Both the position numbers and the translations under genes were made by a program. Shown in pieces: positions 30,725-54,401 of a stretch of DNA of 64,000 bases. The notes under the pieces are model-generated. The model saw only the letters and a list, made by a program, of their open reading frames with translations. It had not been told where the DNA came from and searched no databases. The first letter of the stretch is position 1. Each line of letters opens with the position of its first letter. This DNA comes from Salibaculum halophilum (GTDB lineage Bacteria > Pseudomonadota > Alphaproteobacteria > Rhodobacterales > Rhodobacteraceae), in assembly GCF_002094885.1 (NCBI RefSeq), contig NZ_MSIT01000011.1, positions 1 through 64,000 on the forward strand, in the 5' to 3' direction.

Positions 30725-30752
30725 AAAGGCGCAAGGTTTCCCTTGCGCCTTT
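30725..30752 (-). terminator. Strong intrinsic terminator of the iron binding-protein gene
   Basis: AAAGGCGCAAGG (30725-30736) and CCTTGCGCCTTT (30741-30752) are perfect complements around a four-base loop, GAAA on the minus strand. It lies 48 bp after the stop of the gene at 30800 and may work in both directions. Confidence 0.85.
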
Positions 30753-44902: not shown

Positions 44903-46075
44903 ATGACCAATGTCGTTATCGCGTCGGCCGCCCGCACCGCAGTGGGCAGCTTCGGCGGTTCCTTTGCCAACACCCCCGCCCACGACCTTGGCACCGCCGT
45001 GCTGGAGGCTGTCGTTGCAAGGGCCGGCATCGACAAGGGCGAGGTCTCGGAAACCATCCTCGGCCAGGTTTTGACGGCCGCGCAGGGCCAGAACCCGGCC
45101 CGGCAGGCGCATGTCAACGCCGGCCTGCCGCAGGAAAGCGCCGCTTGGGGCATCAATCAGGTGTGCGGCTCGGGCCTTCGGGCCGTGGCCCTGGGCGCGC
45201 AGCACATCATGCTGGGTGATGCGCAGATCGTTGCCGCCGGCGGGCAGGAGAACATGTCGATGGCGCCGCACGCGGCGAACCTGCGCCAGGGCCACAAGAT
45301 GGGTGACATGAAATACATCGACACGATGATCCGCGATGGCCTCTGGGATGCCTTCAACGGCTATCACATGGGCCAGACCGCCGAGAACGTTGCCGAGAAG
45401 TGGCAGATCAGCCGCGACCAACAGGACGAACTCGCCCTGGCCAGCCAAAACAAGGCCGAGGCCGCCCAGAATGCGGGCAAGTTCGACGACGAGGTTGTCG
45501 CCTTCACCGTCAAGACCCGCAAGGGCGATACCGTCGTGGACAAGGACGAATACATCCGCCACGGCGCGACGATGGAGGGCATGGAAAAGATGCGCCCGGC
45601 CTTCACCAAGGACGGCTCGGTCACCGCGGCGAACGCCTCGGGGCTCAATGACGGGGCCGCCGGAACCCTGTTGATGAGCGCCGACGAGGCCGAGAAGCGC
45701 GGCATCGAGCCGCTGGCCCGCATCGCCAGCTACGCCACCGCTGGCCTGGACCCTTCGATCATGGGCGTCGGCCCAATCCATGCCAGCCGCAAGGCGCTCG
45801 ACAAGGCGGGCTGGTCGGTCAGCGACCTGGACCTTGTCGAGGCGAACGAGGCCTTCGCCGCCCAGGCCTGTGCCGTGAACAAGGACATGGGCTGGGACCC
45901 CGATATCGTGAACGTCAACGGCGGGGCCATCGCCATCGGCCACCCGATCGGCGCCTCGGGCGCGCGCGTGCTCAACACCCTGCTGTTCGAGATGAAGCGC
46001 CGCGACGCCAAGAAGGGCCTCGCCACCCTCTGCATCGGTGGCGGCATGGGCGTCGCGCTCTGCGTCGAGCGCTGA
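44903..46075 (+). CDS. phaA: Acetyl-CoA C-acetyltransferase (beta-ketothiolase)
   Basis: The enzyme joins two acetyl-CoA to acetoacetyl-CoA, the first step to polyhydroxybutyrate. [14 protein letters not shown] holds the acyl-carrying Cys88; [16 protein letters not shown] has His347; and [14 protein letters not shown] at the C-terminus has Cys377. Length 390 aa is standard. GAGAGGA precedes the ATG. With phaB 70 bp downstream it forms a phaAB operon closed by a terminator; no polymerase gene (phaC) is in the window. Use in acetoacetate or ethylmalonyl-CoA metabolism is also possible. Confidence 0.95.
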
Positions 46076-46145
46076 CCGCCGAACCGCCGAAAAACGCGGG
46101 CACCGGGAGGGTGCCCGGACAATCCCCTGAAGGAGGAGAAAGACC

Positions 46146-46868
46146 ATGGGACGTGTTGCACTGGTGACGGGGGGCAGCCGCGGGATCGGCGCCGCCATTT
46201 CCAAGAGGCTCAAGCAGGACGGCTACGAGGTCGCCGCGACCTATGCCGGCAATGACGAGGCTGCCGCCAAGTTCACCGAGGAAACCGGCATCAAGACCTA
46301 CAAGTGGAACGTCGCCGACTACGACGAGTCCAAGGCCGGCATCGAAAAGGTCGAGGCCGATCTCGGCCCGGTCGAGGTGGTCGTCGCCAACGCGGGCGTC
46401 ACCAAGGACGCCCCCTTCCACAAGATGACCCCCGAGCAGTGGTCACAGGTGATCGACACCAACCTGACCGGCGTCTTCAACACCGTGCATCCGGTCTGGC
46501 CGGGCATGCGCGAGCGCGGTTTCGGACGGGTCATCGTGATTTCCTCGATCAACGGCCAGAAGGGGCAGTTCGCGCAGGTCAACTACGCCGCCACAAAGGC
46601 GGGCGATCTGGGCATCATCAAGTCGCTGGCCCAGGAGGGGGCGGCCAAGGGCATCACCGCCAATGCCGTCTGCCCCGGCTACATCGCGACCGAGATGGTC
46701 ATGGCCGTGCCCGACAAGGTGCGCGAGGCCATCATCAGCCAGATCCCGGCCGGCCGCCTGGGCGAGCCCGAGGAAATCGCCCGCTGCGTGGCCTTCCTGG
46801 CCTCCGACGAGTCGAGCTTCGTCAACGGCTCGACAATCTCGGCCAACGGCGGACAGTTCTTCGTCTGA
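46146..46868 (+). CDS. phaB: Acetoacetyl-CoA reductase, NADPH-dependent
   Basis: An SDR enzyme that reduces acetoacetyl-CoA to (R)-3-hydroxybutyryl-CoA. VALVTGGSRGIGAAISKRL is the NADP site; Ser134, Tyr147 and Lys151 (NYAATKAG) form the catalytic set; VCPGYIATEMV follows. Length 240 aa is exact for PhaB. A very strong GAAGGAGGAG lies before the ATG. It ends 32 bp before an intrinsic terminator, so phaA-phaB is a two-gene operon. Confidence 0.95.
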   Translation: MGRVALVTGGSRGIGAAISKRLKQDGYEVAATYAGNDEAAAKFTEETGIKTYKWNVADYDESKAGIEKVEADLGPVEVVVANAGVTKDAPFHKMTPEQWSQVIDTNLTGVFNTVHPVWPGMRERGFGRVIVISSINGQKGQFAQVNYAATKAGDLGIIKSLAQEGAAKGITANAVCPGYIATEMVMAVPDKVREAIISQIPAGRLGEPEEIARCVAFLASDESSFVNGSTISANGGQFFV

Positions 46869-46900
46869 GACCGCGTCTCGCATGAGGGGTGCAGAACGGC

Positions 46901-46926
46901 AAAGGCCGCCCGCCGGGGCGGCCTTT
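46901..46926 (+). terminator. Intrinsic terminator after phaB
   Basis: AAAGGCCGCCC and GGGCGGCCTTTT flank a short GCCG-type loop. It closes the phaAB operon and also lies after the convergent DUF465 gene, so it can serve both. Confidence 0.9.
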
Positions 46927-46950
46927 TCCGGTGCCACACGGCGGGGGGTG

Positions 46951-47121
46951 TCAGGCCCGGTCTTCCAGCCGGGCGATTTCTTCCTTGAGTTGCAGTTTCT
47001 GCTTTTTCAGGCGCGCGATCTCCAGGTCGTCGCTCCCCGGGGCGCGCTGGGCGGTCTCAACGGCTTGGGACAGTTGGTCGTGCTTTCTCTTGAGCTCTTG
47101 CAGATGCGACGTCATGCTCAT
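46951..47121 (-). CDS. DUF465 (YdcH-like) small coiled-coil protein (56 aa)
   Basis: The peptide is almost wholly one charged helical hairpin (LQELKRKHDQLSQAVETA ... EIARLKKQKLQLKEEIARLE), the DUF465/YdcH pattern. No activity is known. The ATG at 47121 follows GGAGGA by 4 bp and is preferred to one at 47133. It stands alone between phaB (convergent) and the methyltransferase gene upstream on the same strand. The helix pairs suggest a small oligomer or a protein partner. Confidence 0.85.
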   Translation of the reverse strand: MSMTSHLQELKRKHDQLSQAVETAQRAPGSDDLEIARLKKQKLQLKEEIARLEDRA

Positions 47122-47251
47122 TGGGTCCTCCATGCGGTTGAGTTGTCATAAAAGTGCATCATACCTTTCGGCGCCTGTCACGCCGCTCGGCAGCAAAACG
47201 GGGCGATATTCCTTCCATGTCGCAGGAGACCCGCAAACCCTTGCTGAAAGG

Positions 47252-48043
47252 TTAACCGATCATCGGCAGGGCCGCGCCGTCGCGCAGCACTGCGCGAACC
47301 TCGGCGGTGTAGTCCTCGGCGTCGGCGCCGTGCGCGCACCCGTCATGGAGAATCAGCGGGGATAGCAGCCGAAGGCGCGCCCGCCCCTCCTTGCGGGCCG
47401 AGATCAGCACCCGATCCGCATCGCGCCCCGCGCGCCCGGCGATGGGCCGGATCACGAGGCTGCCCAGCCTGTCGTCCATCACCGCCAGGATGTCGGGCAG
47501 GCGGTCGGCCTTCTGGATCAGCGTCAGGTAGCCTTTGGGGGACAGCCGACGCGTGGCCACGTCCAGCCAGTCGCCCAGCGGCGTGTCGCCGCCCAGGGCC
47601 GTCTCGCGCCCGGTGCGGTCCGAGGCCGTGCCGCGGCGACGGTCGAAATAGGGCGGGTTGGCGATGACGTGGTCAAAGCCGCGGGCGCGCAGGTCACCGG
47701 GCAGGGTGCGCAGATCGCCATCCACGATCCGGGCCGGTATGCCGTTGGCAGTGGCGTTTCGGCGGGCCAGATCGGCATAATCGAGCTGCAGCTCGACCCC
47801 GGTCAGCGCCAGCTGCGGCACCCGCGCCGCCAGGCAGAACAGCGCCGCGCCAACGCCGCAGCCAAGCTCCAGCACCGAGTGCCCGGGCCTCGCGGGGGTG
47901 GCGGCGGCCAGCAGCACCGGGTCGACCCCGGCGCGGTAGCCGCGCGCCGGCTGCAACAGCGTCACGCGACCGCCCAGGAAAGCGTCTTGCGTCACCCCGG
48001 CCGTGCCACCGGGGCCGGGATCACTGGCCGAGGTCGATGTCAT
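47252..48043 (-). CDS. tRNA1(Val) adenine N6-methyltransferase-like protein (263 aa)
   Basis: VLELGCGVGAALFCLAARVP near residue 56 is SAM motif I; HVIANPPYFDRRRG near 124 contains NPPY, the motif of N6-adenine methyltransferases. The preceding VTLLQPARGYRAGVDPVLLAAA is typical of the TrmN6/YfiC group. It most likely methylates a tRNA or rRNA adenine. It starts inside the end of the DUF2007 gene (23-bp overlap), so the two genes are read together. The substrate tRNA is not proven. Confidence 0.85.
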   Translation of the reverse strand: MTSTSASDPGPGGTAGVTQDAFLGGRVTLLQPARGYRAGVDPVLLAAATPARPGHSVLELGCGVGAALFCLAARVPQLALTGVELQLDYADLARRNATANGIPARIVDGDLRTLPGDLRARGFDHVIANPPYFDRRRGTASDRTGRETALGGDTPLGDWLDVATRRLSPKGYLTLIQKADRLPDILAVMDDRLGSLVIRPIAGRAGRDADRVLISARKEGRARLRLLSPLILHDGCAHGADAEDYTAEVRAVLRDGAALPMIG

Positions 48044-48236
48044 TGTCCCGCAGGATGGAGGCGGCCATGAAATGATCCGCGTCCCGCACCATGATGCGGC
48101 GCGGCAAAATGCCGATGCTGCCTTCGAGGACGCTCATGTTTACGTCCAGCTCGAACACCTCTATACCCTCGCCGTCCAGCAGGGCCTTGGCAAAGGCGAT
48201 CACGGTGGGGTCGTTGCTGCGCAGAAGTTCCTTCAT
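48021..48236 (-). CDS. DUF2007 small protein (71 aa)
   Basis: MKELLRSNDPTVIAFAKALLDGEGIEVFELD matches the DUF2007 (putative signal-transducing) fold: a compact alpha/beta domain. The same region ends RRIMVRDADHFMAASILRDNDID. No function is known. It overlaps the start of the methyltransferase gene by 23 bp and starts 54 bp from the divergent polyprenyl synthase gene. The arrangement DUF2007-TrmN6 opposite to the prenyl synthase recurs in alphaproteobacteria as far as I recall. Confidence 0.85.
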   Translation of the reverse strand: MKELLRSNDPTVIAFAKALLDGEGIEVFELDVNMSVLEGSIGILPRRIMVRDADHFMAASILRDNDIDLGQ

Positions 48237-48290
48237 CCAACTGACTTAAGGCGAAATCCCCGCCTTTGTCGAGCATCCGACGGAGAGTTC

Positions 48291-49286
48291 ATGAGCCTCG
48301 ATGCCGCCACGAAACCTCAGGAACGCCTCGCAGAGGCGCTGGCCGAGGACATGGACCGCGTCAACGGCATGATCCGCGCGCGCATGGCCTCCGAGCACGC
48401 GCCCCGCATCCCCGAGGTCACCGCGCATCTGGTCGAGGCCGGCGGCAAGCGCCTGCGCCCGCTTCTGACGCTGGGGGCCGCGCGAATGTGCGGCTATGAC
48501 GGGCCGCATCACGTGCATCTGGCCGCCACGGTCGAGTTCATCCACACGGCAACCCTTCTGCACGACGACGTGGTCGACGACAGCGCGCAGCGGCGCGGGC
48601 GGCCCACCGCGAACCTGCTTTGGGACAATACCTCTAGCGTGCTGGTGGGCGATTACCTCTTCGCGCGGGCCTTCCAGCTGATGACCGAGACCGGGTCGCT
48701 GCGGGTGCTGCGCATCCTGTCCGATGCCGCCGCAACCATCGCCGAGGGCGAGGTGCTGCAACTCACGGCGGCGCGCGATCTGGCCACCACCGAGGACATC
48801 TACCTGCAGATCGTGCGCGGCAAGACGGCGGCGCTGTTCTCGGCGGCGATGGAGGTTGGCGGCGTGATCGCCGGCCAGGACGCGGCGCGCGTGCAGGCCA
48901 TGTTCGACTATGGCGACGCGCTGGGCATCGCCTTCCAGATGGTCGATGACGTTCTGGATTACGCAGGGGGAGACGCCACCGGCAAGAACATCGGCGACGA
49001 CTTTCGCGAGCGCAAACTGACGCTGCCGCTCATCAAGGCCTTGGCCGCGGCGGGTGCCGAGGAACGCAGCTTTTGGAGCCGCACGATCGAGCAGGGCCGG
49101 CAGGAGGCGGGCGACCTGGACACCGCGCTGGCCCTGCTGGACCAGCACGGCGCCATCGCGGCGACCCGGGCCGAGGCCCTGGCCTGGGCCGATCGGGCCA
49201 AGGCGGCGCTGGCGGACATGCCGGATCATGAGGTGCGCGATATCCTGCTGGACCTGGCCGACTACGTCGTCGCGCGGGTGCGCTGA
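48291..49286 (+). CDS. ispB: Long-chain polyprenyl diphosphate synthase (quinone side chain)
   Basis: A trans-prenyl synthase that adds isopentenyl units to make the C40-C50 tail of ubiquinone. HTATLLHDDVVDDSAQRRG near residue 85 is the first Asp-rich motif (DDxxD), AFQMVDDVLDYAGG near 215 the second, and AGGKRLRPLL near 50 holds the Lys/Arg that bind diphosphate. Length 331 aa is standard. Chain length (octa- or decaprenyl) is not decided; Rhodobacterales usually make Q10. A GGAG precedes the ATG. A set of palindromes follows its stop. Confidence 0.92.
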   Translation: MSLDAATKPQERLAEALAEDMDRVNGMIRARMASEHAPRIPEVTAHLVEAGGKRLRPLLTLGAARMCGYDGPHHVHLAATVEFIHTATLLHDDVVDDSAQRRGRPTANLLWDNTSSVLVGDYLFARAFQLMTETGSLRVLRILSDAAATIAEGEVLQLTAARDLATTEDIYLQIVRGKTAALFSAAMEVGGVIAGQDAARVQAMFDYGDALGIAFQMVDDVLDYAGGDATGKNIGDDFRERKLTLPLIKALAAAGAEERSFWSRTIEQGRQEAGDLDTALALLDQHGAIAATRAEALAWADRAKAALADMPDHEVRDILLDLADYVVARVR

Positions 49287-49290
49287 AGCG

Positions 49291-49383
49291 GACGCCGTGT
49301 CGACGCGGCGTCGGTGACGCGATGGTGATATCGCGTAGAACGGGCTTTGCAAAGCCCGTGTCCGCGGCGCGTCGACGCGCCGC
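49291..49383. repeat. Four consecutive palindromes between convergent ispB and ispE
   Basis: A: 49291-49312, GACGCCGTGTC/GACGCGGCGTC, nearly perfect, centre GTCGAC. B: 49317-49336, ACGCGAT-6-ATCGCGT. C: 49340-49359, ACGGGCTTTGCAAAGCCCGT, perfect 20 bp. D: 49364-49383, GCGGCGCGTCGACGCGCCGC, perfect 20 bp, centre GTCGAC. They fill the whole 99-bp gap. A and D are related to each other. They may act as terminators for both genes or as protein-binding or cruciform sites. Confidence 0.8.
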
Positions 49384-49385
49384 CC

Positions 49386-50246
49386 TCATCCGGACCAAAG
49401 GTGTGTCGGCATGATCCACCAGTCGGGGTGAGCGGCGCGCAGGCTGTCCGCCGCCGCATCCCGGTGCGCTGCCTGCGCGAAGACTGCGAAACATGTGGCG
49501 CCCGATCCCGACATGCGGGCCAGCCGGGCCCCCGGGCGGGTGGCCAGGGCCTCCAGCACCCTGCCGATCACCGGCTGCGCGGCAATGGCGGGGGCGGCCA
49601 GGTCATTGCGCTGCCGCGTCAGCCAGGCCAGCCAGGCGTCGGTATCCGCGGGCGCCGGTATCGGGTCGTCCATCGGCGGGTTGGTCTTTTGCGCCAGGCC
49701 GCCAAAGACTTGCGGTGTCGACAGTGCAACGCCGGGGTTGACCAGCAGCAGGGGCAGGGGGGGCCGGGCGCCGAGGCGTGTCAGGTCCTGGCCGATACCG
49801 CCCATCCGCAGCAGCCCGGGGTGAAGGCAGGCAGGCACATCGGCCCCGAGGGCGAGAAGGCGCGTCGCATCCGGCAGGGGCCGGTCCCAGAGCCGTGACA
49901 GGGCCCTCAGGGTCGCCGCCGCATCCGAGGAGCCGCCGCCGATCCCGGCGGCCACGGGCAGGGCCTTGTGCAGGTGAACATGCGCGCCGCGATCCGGGTC
50001 CAGCACCCGCGCCGCCCGCAGAACGAGGTTTTCGGCCGTCGACGACAGGGCGTCGGCGAAGGGTCCGTCGAGGCTCAGGGTCAGGCGCGGGGCCGGGGTC
50101 ACGGTGACGCTGTCGCCTACCTCAGTGAAGGCGACGAGCGAGTCGAGCAGGTGATAGCCGTCGGCGCGCTGCGCGGTGACATGCAGGCAAAGGTTCAGCT
50201 TGGCCGGTGCCGGCTCCGTCAGCGGCGCGGTCTCAGTCGGCGTCAT
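49386..50246 (-). CDS. ispE: 4-diphosphocytidyl-2-C-methyl-D-erythritol kinase
   Basis: IspE phosphorylates CDP-methylerythritol in the MEP path to isoprenoid units, which feed the prenyl synthase on the opposite strand. APAKLNLCLHVTAQRADGYH at the start is the substrate region; LPVAAGIGGGSSDAAATLRAL near residue 94 is the GHMP kinase phosphate loop; RMSGSGATCFAVF near 240 is the third motif. Length 286 aa is normal. The start overlaps the end of the TPR gene by 14 bp, so it is coupled to it. Confidence 0.95.
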   Translation of the reverse strand: MTPTETAPLTEPAPAKLNLCLHVTAQRADGYHLLDSLVAFTEVGDSVTVTPAPRLTLSLDGPFADALSSTAENLVLRAARVLDPDRGAHVHLHKALPVAAGIGGGSSDAAATLRALSRLWDRPLPDATRLLALGADVPACLHPGLLRMGGIGQDLTRLGARPPLPLLLVNPGVALSTPQVFGGLAQKTNPPMDDPIPAPADTDAWLAWLTRQRNDLAAPAIAAQPVIGRVLEALATRPGARLARMSGSGATCFAVFAQAAHRDAAADSLRAAHPDWWIMPTHLWSG

Positions 50247-51930
50247 AGGCCATGTCCGCCGGGGTCCGGCCCTCCTCGCGCATGACCTCGTCCAGGCCGA
50301 CCTCCAGCTTGCGGCGAATGCGCTCGGCCAAGTCCGGGGCGGGGTCGAAGGACAGGGCCCGTCGCCACTGGAAGCGTGCCTCGACCGTGCGGCCGACCAT
50401 CCAGTAGGTATCGCCGAGGTGATCGGTGACGATGGGGTCCACCGGCACCAGCTCCACTGCCCGTTCCATGTGTGTCACGGCCTCGTCGTAGCGGCCCAGC
50501 TTGAACAGCACCCAGCCCAGGCTGTCGATGATCGCGCCGCTCTCGGGGCGGGCTGCCGCGGCCTGTTCGATCATGGCCAGGGCCTCGTCCAGGTTCTCGC
50601 CCATCTCGACCATGGAATACCCGAGGTAGTTGAGCACCGAGGGCTGGCCGGGTTCGAGGCGCAGCGCTGCGCGGAAATCCGCCTCGGCGCTGTCCCATTG
50701 GTCCAGCCGTTCGTGGGTGATGCCGCGGGCATAGGTGACCCACCAGCGCGAGGGATGATCCGGCGCGTAAAGCGAAAGCGCGGTGTCATAGGCGCTGTTG
50801 GCCGCGGCATAGTCCCCGGCTTCGCGGTGGATGTCGCCCAGTGAGGCATGCACCAGGGCGACGTCGCCGTGACGGCGGGCCAGCTGCGACAGTGCCTCGA
50901 TCGCGGCCTCGGTGCGGCCTTGCGCGCGCAGCGCCTCGGCCCGGCCCAGTTCCGCGGTCAGAAAGGCCGGGTCGGCCGGGTCGACCCGGGCGAAGGCGGC
51001 GGCGGCAAGGTCGTGCTGGCCGATCTCGTCCAGCAGCCGGGCGGCCGTGACATGCGCGCGCGCCAGCTTCGGGTCGATATGGGCGGCGGCCTGCGCATAC
51101 ATCAGCAGGTAGGAGGGGTCGGCCTCGCCACCCTGCAGGGCCTCGGCCAGGCTCAGGTAGAGATGCGCGACCGCGCCGCGCGGGGTATCGGCCAGCCCGG
51201 CCCGTGTTGGCACCATCCCGGCGGCGACCTTTTCGCGTATGGCGCGCAGGTCGGGCGCCGCGGTCCGGCCGAAGCCGTCGTCGAGCACCTCTTGCGCGCG
51301 CTCGAACCGGCCGAGGCGACAAAGCACCCGCACGTGGGTCAGCACCGAGGCCCGCGTAGGTGCCACGCCCTGCGCGGGCGGGCGCGACAGGATCGCGTCA
51401 GCCCCTTCGAGGTCCCCGGCCTGGGCAAGGGCCACGGCCTTGTGCAGATACCCGAAGGAGCGCAGCCCGGGCGCATCGACCGTCTCGTCGAAGGCGGCCA
51501 GCGCGGCATCCATGCGGCCCGTGCCCACCAAGGCCCAGGCCCGCGTCAATCCGTCGATCATTGGGCCGACGTCATGCCCGGCGTCCAGAATATCGAAGAT
51601 GCGGGTCCAGTCTTCGGCCCGGGCGGCCTCGGCCAGCAAGACCATGTTAGCCATCTGCCCGTTCTGTCCGTCCGCCAGCATCGCCCGCGCCACGGGCAGC
51701 GCGTCCTCGACATGGCCCACCGCGATCTGGGCGGTCAGGGTATTCTCGCGCAGGGCCGTGTTGCCGGGGTCGCGCGTCAGCGCCTTGCCGAAATAGGTGG
51801 CTGCCGCGTCGTAGTCCTGCGTCAGCCCGGCCTGGCGCGCGGCCAGGTAGGCGCCCAGGTCCGGGCTGGCGGCGACTTGCCCCGACAGGGCGATGGCGGC
51901 GATCAGGGCAAGGCTGAGGGGTTTTGGCAC
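50233..51930 (-). CDS. Periplasmic or secreted TPR-repeat protein (565 aa)
   Basis: It starts at GTG (51930) with GGAGAG before it and has a signal peptide (residues 2-21, ending VAA). The mature part is built of tetratricopeptide repeats; the clearest are near residues 30-60, 400-460 (ARGITHERLDQWDSAEADFRAALRLEPGQPSVLNYLGYSMVEMG in sections) and 480-540 (LGWVLFKLGRYDEAVTHMERAVELVPVDPIVTDHLGD). It should be a scaffold for protein contacts in the periplasm or at the outer membrane. The pairing TPR-ispE is common in Rhodobacterales. The partner is unknown. Confidence 0.85.
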   Translation of the reverse strand: MPKPLSLALIAAIALSGQVAASPDLGAYLAARQAGLTQDYDAAATYFGKALTRDPGNTALRENTLTAQIAVGHVEDALPVARAMLADGQNGQMANMVLLAEAARAEDWTRIFDILDAGHDVGPMIDGLTRAWALVGTGRMDAALAAFDETVDAPGLRSFGYLHKAVALAQAGDLEGADAILSRPPAQGVAPTRASVLTHVRVLCRLGRFERAQEVLDDGFGRTAAPDLRAIREKVAAGMVPTRAGLADTPRGAVAHLYLSLAEALQGGEADPSYLLMYAQAAAHIDPKLARAHVTAARLLDEIGQHDLAAAAFARVDPADPAFLTAELGRAEALRAQGRTEAAIEALSQLARRHGDVALVHASLGDIHREAGDYAAANSAYDTALSLYAPDHPSRWWVTYARGITHERLDQWDSAEADFRAALRLEPGQPSVLNYLGYSMVEMGENLDEALAMIEQAAAARPESGAIIDSLGWVLFKLGRYDEAVTHMERAVELVPVDPIVTDHLGDTYWMVGRTVEARFQWRRALSFDPAPDLAERIRRKLEVGLDEVMREEGRTPADMAYDAD

Positions 51931-52040
51931 GGCACTCTCCGAACGGGTTGGCAAGCTTTGAGTATAGCGCCGCCCCGACAGGGGCAAATCACAACCGGGC
52001 CGTGCGGCGGGGCAGCGCGCAGCCCACCGCGCCGCCGCGT

Positions 52041-53690
52041 CTACATGTTGGGGTAGTTCGGCCCGTCGCCCCCCTGCGGCACCGTCCAGTGGATGTTCTG
52101 GCTGGGGTCCTTGATGTCGCAGGTCTTGCAATGCACGCAGTTCTGGAAATTGATGACGAACTGTTGCTCGCCGTCCTTCTCGACGAACTCGTAGACCCCG
52201 GCGGGGCAATAGCGGGCCGAGGGGCCGGCGTATTTCGGCAGATTCACCGCGACCGGGATGCTGGCATCCTTGAGTGTCAGATGGACGGGCTGGTTTTCCT
52301 CGTGGTTGGTCATGGAATAGCTGACATTCGTCAACCGGTCGAAGGACAGCTTGCCATCGGGCTTGGGGTAGTCGATGGGCTGATGCCTGTCCGCCGGTTC
52401 GGTCGCCGCGGCGTCCGACTTGCCGTGCGCCATGGTGCCGAACAGGCTGCGCCCGAAGAGGGTATTCGTCCACATGTCGACCCCGCCCAGGGCGAGCGAG
52501 GCCCCGAGGCCCCACTTGGACCACATCGGCTTCACGTTGCGCACCTTTTTCAGGTCGCGGCCAATGGCGCCGGTGCGCACCTCGTCCTCGTAGGCGGTCA
52601 GCTCGTCGCCGGCGCGCGCGGCGCCGATCGCGTGGTGGGCGGCCTCGGCGGCGGCCTTGCCTGACAGCATTGCGTTGTGGTTGCCCTTGATGCGCGGCAC
52701 GTTGACCATGCCCACCGAACAGCCCAGCAGCGCCACTCCGGGCGCGACCATTTTCGGCATGGACTGGTAGCCGCCCTCGGAAATGGCCCGTGCGCCATAG
52801 GCCACGCGCTTGCCGCCTTCCAGAAGGTCGGCCACCATCGGGTGGTGCTTGAAGCGCTGGAATTCCATGTAGGGGTAAAGGTGCGGGTTGCGGTAGTTCA
52901 GGTGCACCACGAACCCGACGTAGACTTGGTTGTTGTCCAGGTGATAGATGAAGGACCCGCCGCCCGCGTTGCCGCCCAGCGGCCAGCCCATGGTGTGGGT
53001 GACAGACCCCTCGCGGTGCTTGGCGGGGTCGACCTCCCAGATTTCCTTCATGCCGAGGCCGTATTTCTGCGGCTCCTTGCCGGCGTCGAGGTCGTATTTG
53101 CCGATGACCTCCTTGGCCAGCGAGCCGCGCACGCCCTCGGACAGGAAGACGTATTTGCCGTGCAGTTCCATGCCCGGCTCGGTGTTGGGCCCGACAGAGC
53201 CGTCGGGCTCCAGCCCGAAGACCCCGGCGACGACGCCCTTGACCTCGCCGGTGTCGCCGTAGACCAGTTCCGAGCAGGACATGCCGGGGAAGATCTCGAC
53301 GCCCAGTTCCTCGGCCTGTTCGGCCATCCAGCGGCAGACATTGCCCATGCTGACGATGTAGGTGCCGTGGTTGTTCATCAGCGGCGGCATCGGCCAGTTG
53401 GGCACGCGGATCTTGCCGGACTCGCCCAGCATATAGAAGTTGTCGTCGCGCACCGGCACGTTGAGCGGCGCGCCCTTGTCCTTCCAGTCGGGGATCAGCG
53501 CGTCGAGGCCGCAGGGGTCGAGCACCGCGCCCGACAGGATGTGCGCGCCGACCTCGGAGCCTTTCTCAAGCACGACGACCTCGAGATCGGCATCCAGTTG
53601 CTTGAGGCGGATCGCCGCCGAAAGGCCGGCGGGCCCCGCCCCGACAATGACGACGTCGTAGTCCATGGATTCGCGTTCCATCTCGGCCAT
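52041..53690 (-). CDS. Electron transfer flavoprotein-ubiquinone oxidoreductase
   Basis: The inner-membrane enzyme passes electrons from ETF, and so from acyl-CoA dehydrogenases such as that at 60086, to ubiquinone. DVVIVGAGPAGLSAAIRLKQ is the FAD site; GCSVGMVNVPRIKGNHNAMLSGKAAAEA near residue 320 is a second FAD contact; YCPAGVYEF and CVHCKTCDIKDPSQNIHW near the C-terminus bind the 4Fe-4S cluster. Length 549 aa is exact. ATG at 53690 follows GGGAG. The divergent greA gene and an inverted repeat at 53761 lie upstream. Confidence 0.95.
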   Translation of the reverse strand: MAEMERESMDYDVVIVGAGPAGLSAAIRLKQLDADLEVVVLEKGSEVGAHILSGAVLDPCGLDALIPDWKDKGAPLNVPVRDDNFYMLGESGKIRVPNWPMPPLMNNHGTYIVSMGNVCRWMAEQAEELGVEIFPGMSCSELVYGDTGEVKGVVAGVFGLEPDGSVGPNTEPGMELHGKYVFLSEGVRGSLAKEVIGKYDLDAGKEPQKYGLGMKEIWEVDPAKHREGSVTHTMGWPLGGNAGGGSFIYHLDNNQVYVGFVVHLNYRNPHLYPYMEFQRFKHHPMVADLLEGGKRVAYGARAISEGGYQSMPKMVAPGVALLGCSVGMVNVPRIKGNHNAMLSGKAAAEAAHHAIGAARAGDELTAYEDEVRTGAIGRDLKKVRNVKPMWSKWGLGASLALGGVDMWTNTLFGRSLFGTMAHGKSDAAATEPADRHQPIDYPKPDGKLSFDRLTNVSYSMTNHEENQPVHLTLKDASIPVAVNLPKYAGPSARYCPAGVYEFVEKDGEQQFVINFQNCVHCKTCDIKDPSQNIHWTVPQGGDGPNYPNM

Positions 53691-53760
53691 GTCCGTGGCT
53701 CCCTTAGTGCTGCGCGCGACCTTGGCATATTGGGTATCGGACAAGCCATGCCGGGGCAAT

Positions 53761-53785
53761 CGCGACACGACGTTAAATTGTCGCG
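53761..53785. promoter_or_regulatory. Inverted repeat between ETF-QO and greA
   Basis: CGCGACA (53761-53767) and TGTCGCG (53779-53785) are exact complements with 11 bp between (CGACGTTAAAT). It lies 71 bp upstream of the ETF-QO start codon. The GCGAC...GTCGC form resembles sites described for RegA/PrrA redox regulators of Rhodobacter, which is only a suggestion here. Confidence 0.5.
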
Positions 53786-53863
53786 CTGCGACCCGGGCGG
53801 GGCCTTGCGGCTGCGGCGCCACCTCATATTCTCGGGTCCTGGATACGCTTCCGGAGACTTCCC

Positions 53864-53892
53864 TTGAGGCCCGGTGGCCCGTAGGGTTATGA
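53864..53892 (+). promoter_or_regulatory. Promoter candidate of greA
   Basis: TTGAGG at 53864-53869, a 17-bp spacer, and TTATGA at 53887-53892, about 38 bp before the greA ATG. Both boxes differ from consensus by two bases. Confidence 0.5.
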
Positions 53893-53930
53893 ACGCGCAC
53901 TTCAAGATTGACGCTTTTCAGGACGGACCG

Positions 53931-54401
53931 ATGGAAAAGATACCGCTGACCCGTGCCGGCTATGACAAGCTGCAGGCCGAGCTCAAGCAGCTCAAGAGCG
54001 AGGACCGCCCCGCGATCATCAAGGCGATCGCCGAGGCACGCGAACATGGCGACCTGTCCGAGAACGCCGAGTATCATTCGGCCAAGGAAAAGCAGTCCTT
54101 CATCGAGGGCCGCATCAAGGAGCTTGAAGGTGTCATGTCGCTGGCCGACGTGATCGACCCGGCCCGGATGTCGGGCGCGATCAAGTTCGGCGCCACGGTC
54201 GGGATCGTCGACGAGGACACCGACGAGGAAAAGACCTACCAGATCGTCGGCGAATACGAGGCCGACCTCGAGGCCGGTAGGCTCAACATCAAGTCGCCCC
54301 TGGCCCGGGCCCTGATCGGCAAGGAGGAGGGCGACAGCGTCGAGGTGCGCACGCCCGGCGGGGACCGCAGCTACGAGATCCTCAGCATTTCCTGGGCCTA
54401 G
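53931..54401 (+). CDS. greA: Transcription elongation factor GreA
   Basis: GreA frees backtracked RNA polymerase by promoting transcript cleavage. Residues 1-75 are the coiled-coil finger ([18 protein letters not shown], then [20 protein letters not shown] with the acidic tip DLSENAEY); the rest is the FKBP-like domain ending [15 protein letters not shown]. Length 156 aa is right. The start at 53931 matches the family; upstream codons in frame are not conserved. A membrane protein gene follows after 16 bp. Confidence 0.95.

Follow-up and report, generated by a model that had tools for sequence, protein, structure and literature searches.

The 99 bp between two convergent isoprenoid genes of Salibaculum halophilum hold a tandem array of four palindromic units, and this array is a member of a REP-like palindrome family that is repeated across the genome. 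The anatomy, position and distribution of the arrays are directly observed, and we put at about an even chance a role in RNA, in which these REP-like units, a family without a RAYT, would serve as hairpins at message ends that stop 3'-to-5' RNA decay in both directions. More tentatively, the arrays could be a previously undescribed bacterial class, whose loop is fixed and self-complementary, whose stems vary freely but always pair, whose rows of up to four or five units do not repeat a word, and which spread between genera of one family without a RAYT. Such a class would imply that some enzyme or selective rule recognises hairpin structure together with TCGA and also enforces the differing words within each array.

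Four palindromes between convergent genes

Reading of the sequence and a script both bore out the initial annotation, which had described four palindromes occupying 49287-49385: two perfect ones of 20 bp (P3 and P4), a near-perfect one of 22 bp (P1) and a hairpin with 7-bp arms (P2), the outer two, P1 and P4, having the GTCGAC core in common (Table 1). The gap extends exactly from the stop codon of the polyprenyl synthetase gene to that of the GHMP-kinase gene, for which the name ispE is putative. From a second-order Markov model of the window (the whole 64,000-nucleotide stretch analysed), hairpins with 10-bp arms and loops of 0-8 are expected 1.4 times per 64 kb; the actual window has two, both loop-less and both inside the gap.

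Table 1. Features of the gap and its flanking genes (positions are those of the window)
Feature	Position	Strand	Description
Whole gap	49287..49385	.	tandem array of four palindromic units, centre spacing 25, 23, 24 bp
P1	49291..49312	.	22 bp, TCGA at the centre (GTCGAC), a single T-G mismatch
P2	49317..49336	.	7-bp arms, 6-nt loop GGTGAT (degenerate centre GTGA)
P3	49340..49359	.	perfect 20-bp palindrome, centre TGCA
P4	49364..49383	.	20 bp, perfect, centre TCGA; its 16-mer core has 10 exact copies genome-wide
Polyprenyl synthetase (ispB-like), convergent	48282..49286	+	PF00348, E 2e-72; stop codon 4 bp before P1
GHMP kinase (ispE-like), convergent	49386..50246	-	PF00288 + PF08544; stop codon 2 bp after P4

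When 49270-49400 was folded as RNA, the centroid on the + strand consisted of exactly the four hairpins (z -2.40); on the - strand z was -3.43, and in the minimum-energy structure P1 pairs with P4, enclosing P2 and P3. An Rfam search of 45000-54000 returned no match for the gap at E 5. The gap contains no T-run, and a terminator scan of 48800-49900 predicted a single site, outside the gap, in agreement with the earlier view that ordinary terminators are insufficient to explain the array. Elsewhere in the window, at 30725-30752 and 46901-46926, hairpins with AAAGG...CCTTT arms look ordinary; theirs is the common terminator style, which congeners have too.

Chance origin of the array was rejected on the Markov expectation, the genome-wide copies and the arm complementarity of motif sites. 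The initial annotation had held that a lack both of conservation in relatives and of similar arrays elsewhere would point to random occurrence; congeners are indeed without the array, but similar arrays are found genome-wide and in distant genera of the family.

Fixed centres, free arms and unlike neighbours

The search for similar palindromes that had been proposed uncovered many arrays across the S. halophilum genome. Among its 2.92 Mb, the letters of the 16-mer core of P4 read backwards have no exact copy and two copies with one mismatch. In 60 other genomes the forward core was absent from all three congeners and from 56 of the 57 others, the remaining one, G028, having a single copy (we designate genomes by our own handles). 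A second core, CGCTGCGTCGACGCAGCG, has nine copies in S. halophilum and none in three congeners. Near core copies lie further palindromes with different arms, and 40 distinct TCGA units were collected from 864 kb of S. halophilum and the loci examined, the commonest exact core being the one with 10 copies genome-wide. REPs often exceed 100 copies of one sequence per genome.

The unit consists of an 8-nt arm, TCGA (less often TGCA) and the complementary 8-nt arm, 20 bp in all. Among loop-less palindromes in gaps with arms of at least 9, the centre is TCGA in 16 of 22 from S. halophilum (864 kb, window included), 20 of 20 from G207 (387 kb) and 24 of 26 from G234 (400 kb); 331 kb of three congeners contain none with any centre. 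Counted without filtering on that base, G stands at the third position in 12/14 distinct units of S. halophilum, 15/15 of G207 and 12/14 of G234, and nearly all units have G or T immediately before TCGA.

Pairing was assessed without selection on pairing, at gap sites picked by the motif MGSNNNKTCGAMNNNSCK alone. The three free positions were all complementary at 15/17 such sites in S. halophilum, 18/18 in G207 and 17/19 in G234 (50/54 in total), and at 6/15, 0/5 and 1/2 coding sites, respectively. Similarly, all eight flanking pairs were present around 16 of 458 gap TCGA tetramers in S. halophilum, 19 of 172 in G207, 21 of 217 in G234 and none of 146 in congeners, with seven pairs in 2, 3, 12 and 1 cases and six pairs in 4, 0, 1 and 2. 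By both sets of counts, the sequence of the arms may vary but their pairing is kept. Some units with an altered centre (TCAA, TCGC, CCCT or TGGA) keep perfect stems, and covariation looks strong on an alignment of 24 units, these having been preselected for pairing. Genes were called by a crude codon-usage script that at times accepts antisense ORFs, which probably accounts for part of the 8 S. halophilum TCGA palindromes that fell in coding sequence, among 23 coding palindromes.

The loci examined contain 99 distinct arrays (32 from S. halophilum, 15 from G207, 17 from G234 and 35 from other genomes) of 1-5 units, with centres 20-27 apart (mode 24) and varied spacers of 4-5 nt. In the 14 four-unit arrays the outer centres are TCGA without exception (28/28) and the inner ones TCGA (18), TGCA (8) or other (2). 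The window array is not counted among these because P1 and P2 are imperfect; its centres match the same plan. Within an array all stem words differ: 11.6 repeats would be expected among 187 pairs, and there are none. Every hairpin folds independently in 66 of the 71 arrays with at least two units on the + strand and in 65 of 71 on the - strand, compared with 252/355 when stem words were redrawn (+ strand) and 0/355 when one word was repeated. Redrawing distinct words gave a mean of 59.9/71 (maximum of 20 rounds, 66/71), so distinctness accounts for most of the independent folding and any hairpin orthogonality beyond it is marginal.

Other repeats were seen along the way. At G095:C185 (L176, ~2000-2400) a 184-bp unit with two adjacent TCGA palindromes stands in three tandem copies. 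In G000, C2 75341-75391 and C23 243805-243832 (L038 and L033) are AT-rich perfect hairpins just after genes that share GAATTTCTGGAAATTC and form a second hairpin family, not centred on GTCGAC. Arrays are uneven in the same genome, with about seven on C2 1-120000 (120 kb) and four on C23 1-280000 (280 kb), and C12 1-280000 (280 kb) has no GTCGAC palindrome outside called genes.

Distribution among genomes and gain of the array

Across 248 genomes of the family Rhodobacteraceae, a first model, R1, gave 39 matches in S. halophilum, 46 in G207, 38 in G234, 18 in G165, 12 in G095 and 8 in G028; G002, the sole congener in the set as judged from the genus count, had two weak rows at one site (E 0.19). 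A wider model, R2, trained on these six array-bearing genomes, matched 54 of 394 family genomes at E 0.03 or better, 27 with at least six rows and 27 with 1-5, leaving 340 with none; rows count both strands, so that six correspond to about three sites, and with 21 candidates scored per genome the counts are lower bounds. R2 had no match in G002. In a class sample of 385 genomes, 26 matched at E 0.1, namely S. halophilum, another member of the family (one row) and 24 genomes from outside it with 1-4 rows each, at most two sites. Two exact cores were looked for in the whole genomes of the congeners G001 and G003, which were otherwise checked by samples. Inside the genus, our searches found the palindrome family only in S. 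halophilum.

In a tree built from 37 IspE proteins, the nine array-rich genomes require seven changes, at least four of them forced by well-supported branches; shuffled labels require 8.2 on average, and 74 of 500 shuffles were as low as seven. To judge from this tree, the array-rich genomes are scattered and hardly clustered. Among named genomes, seven IspE relatives were recovered, the best of them from a Maritimibacter MAG at 58%. Different genera have stem words in common, eight between S. halophilum and G207 vs 2.8 expected (0.1% of simulations as high), five between S. halophilum and G234 vs 1.4 (0.4%) and five between G207 and G234 vs 1.9 (2.6%), the expectations coming from a position-wise model and the counts being ones that selection for GC-rich stems could raise. 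Whole-array DNA searches gave only partial matches among plasmids (best E 0.07-0.09) and no match among phages, and no named carrier of either kind was found in them.

The ispB and ispE genes overlap by 4 bp in G001 and G003 and lie 7 bp apart in G002, and the 99 bp in S. halophilum are the longest of 26 measurable gaps. A second S. halophilum array (L121) falls in ~74 bp missing from G001, and comparison with G001 places a third (L020) in a gap of 20 residues. These three are the S. halophilum array sites with both flanks in the congener stretches analysed, and all three are empty in congeners, which suggests that array gain was recent. In the array-rich G165 the ispB/ispE gap measures 60 bp and contains a TCGA palindrome of its own, and in G234, G095 and G142 the two genes overlap by 8 bp. 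At the same position in G023 (L053), a 25-bp gap is filled by a perfect 26-bp palindrome of another type, TAGGATGGGTGATATCACCCATCCTA.

The initial annotation also proposed a search for a RAYT gene. None was detected in the S. halophilum genome (Y1_Tnp, PF01797; a control matched in 5/14), and of 12 further genomes only G212 had a RAYT/Y1_Tnp match. A Y1 transposase was not found in six of the seven other array-rich genomes searched (G207, G234, G165, G095, G028 and G142, of which G095 is 76% and G207 86% complete), the seventh being G212. Mobilisation by RAYT is not supported by these searches, although in G212 arrays and a Y1 gene occur together. The absence of RAYT raises the question of what spreads the arrays.

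Possible roles and relation to known elements

TCGA units are concentrated behind genes. In S. halophilum, G207 and G234 together, they occur in 18 of 140 convergent gaps of at least 30 bp, 17 of 548 same-strand gaps and 1 of 230 divergent gaps, and in none of 164 congener gaps of that size. Of 35 arrays, 25 have a stop codon facing them within 20 bp and 32 within 35 bp. No U-tract accompanies them: none of 348 flanks of 174 TCGA units has at least four T in six. The position after stop codons, the near absence from divergent gaps, the lack of U-tracts and the independent hairpins together point to mRNA 3' ends.

We propose that, because each unit is palindromic, the two convergent transcripts would both have the same series of short, stable hairpins immediately behind the stop codon, with no U-tract. 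The row would act as a two-way barrier to 3'-to-5' exonucleases: messages terminated further downstream, probably by Rho, would be trimmed back to the hairpins and so acquire defined, stable 3' ends. Hairpins halt 3'-to-5' exonuclease trimming, and units within an array would have to differ because identical palindromes would cross-pair and would also be prone to deletion. The family would have spread in the S. halophilum lineage, apparently without a RAYT. Two published reports describe the removal of RNA 3' ends by exonucleases following Rho-dependent termination (PMC11925234, PMC9927376).

Some observations count against the barrier. RNA-level selection predicts a preference for G-U on the message strand, but single mismatches show no such preference: in same-strand gaps (any 4-nt centre) they comprised 4 G-U, 7 A-C and 17 others, a small sample for this orientation test; single mismatches in partners of TCGA units comprised 9 G-T, 7 A-C and 7 others. 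A palindromic loop is unnecessary in RNA, congeners manage without arrays, only 4 of 64 convergent gaps of at least 30 bp in S. halophilum carry a unit, and the - strand of the window array prefers P1-P4 pairing.

The main rival, possible but rather unlikely in our view, is a mobile element without host function, whose units are copied as single-stranded DNA hairpins by an enzyme, not a RAYT, that recognises the TCGA-loop hairpin; gene 3' ends would then simply be places where insertion is tolerated. The patchy distribution, which requires several gains or losses, the empty congener sites, the independent insertion in G165 at the same ispB/ispE gap, the stem words common to different genera and the fixed loop centre are all as expected of such an element. 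However, one would not expect variable stems if the units were copies of a single element, the spacers differ (4-5 nt), no target-site duplication was demonstrated, and the Y1 transposase was not found in S. halophilum or in six of the seven other array-rich genomes searched.

A DNA dyad contacted by a homodimeric protein at TCGA and flanking G/C (a nucleoid protein, gyrase or supercoil site), placed where supercoils arise from convergent transcription, seems quite unlikely. Symmetry through the centre, the nearly fixed TCGA and third-base G, the enrichment in convergent gaps, the regular 24-bp spacing and the equal G-T and A-C defects would suit it, whereas complementarity at the free positions in all but four of the 54 gap sites of three genomes is not needed by a dyad, and stems stay perfect even where the centre has changed. 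Tandem two-way intrinsic terminators likewise have a low probability. The hairpins do directly follow stop codons, an ordinary terminator is rarely in the same gap (3 of 36 unit-bearing gaps in three genomes), and arms in other genera often have the form AA...TT, with AA first in 20/37 units of G207 (AT in 1) and 39/71 units of other genomes; against this stand the flanks without T-runs, the terminator-free window gap and the arms of S. halophilum itself, of which only 2/40 start with AA. Very improbable is a by-product of template-switch (quasipalindrome) correction without a selected function, which fits the balance of G-T and A-C defects and the mostly full pairing of partners beside TCGA units (126 with 8/8 pairs and 23 with 7/8, vs 1 and 3 in a control 200 nt away) but leaves the TCGA centre, 20-bp size, 24-bp spacing, 3'-end position and patchy distribution unexplained.

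Within one bacterial family, a hairpin row is present or lacking at the ends of the same genes; these many natural experiments make the effect of REP-like hairpins on message ends directly testable. A search of PMC, a collection with most subscription journals outside its scope, returned no account of the fixed-centre, variable-stem pattern.

Several known systems resemble the arrays in part. Intrinsic terminators share a GC-rich hairpin following the stop codon, whereas the array units have no U-tract, a symmetric loop and a tandem arrangement. Mitochondrial repetitive hairpin elements, in the portions of PMC2800124 that describe them, are likewise tandem intergenic hairpins with repeated independent invasions and no known enzyme; in the sponge elements, however, it is the stems that are conserved and the loops that differ, opposite to the pattern here.

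The initial annotation had suggested a paired REP (BIME-like) unit, and this holds insofar as the array is one of many from an extragenic palindrome family repeated at the 3' ends of genes; it fails in that no RAYT was found in S. halophilum, GTAG and CGTC tags are absent or rare, and the arms are variable. GTAG was found beside the stem at 3/80 flanks in S. halophilum and 3/348 overall, and CGTC (or TGTC, CCTC) at 2/80 and 6/348; neither tag is significant in S. halophilum. In their size (20-40 bp), their mainly extragenic place and the lack of a T-rich tail, the units resemble REPs in the wide sense. Without a RAYT, significant GTAG/CGTC tagging or U-tracts, they are neither classical REPs/BIMEs nor intrinsic terminators. 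Like GTAG REPs and BIMEs with RAYT, as portrayed in PMC3733652 (see also PMC2817692), they are clustered repeated palindromes after convergent or same-strand genes, but they have neither the GTAG tag nor conserved stems, and the head-head/tail-tail order is lacking because every unit is symmetric.

The nearest published kind is the CGTC-tagged REPs, described in sections of Di Nocera et al. (2013; PMC3733652) as short extragenic palindromes, mostly of Alphaproteobacteria, that lie downstream of genes, have 8-9 bp stems and 4-5 nt loops, often prefer unlike dimers and have no known dedicated transposase. Our family shares the extragenic position after genes, the unlike neighbours and the lack of a dedicated transposase, and its 8-bp stem and 4-nt centre fall within those dimensions. 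It differs in having no CGTC tag or CCA tail rule, in its perfect symmetry through the TCGA/TGCA centre, and in its highly variable arms and its tandem arrays, in which as many as five units are separated by 4-5 nt; the A-T pairs that begin CGTC REP stems are rare in S. halophilum, where the first two stem bases are AA in 2 and AT in 1 of 40 units. The same sections call the preference for unlike dimers unexplained and suggest protection from SbcCD-type removal, and the rule that no word occurs twice in an array puts a number on that question of why unlike dimers predominate (PMC3733652).
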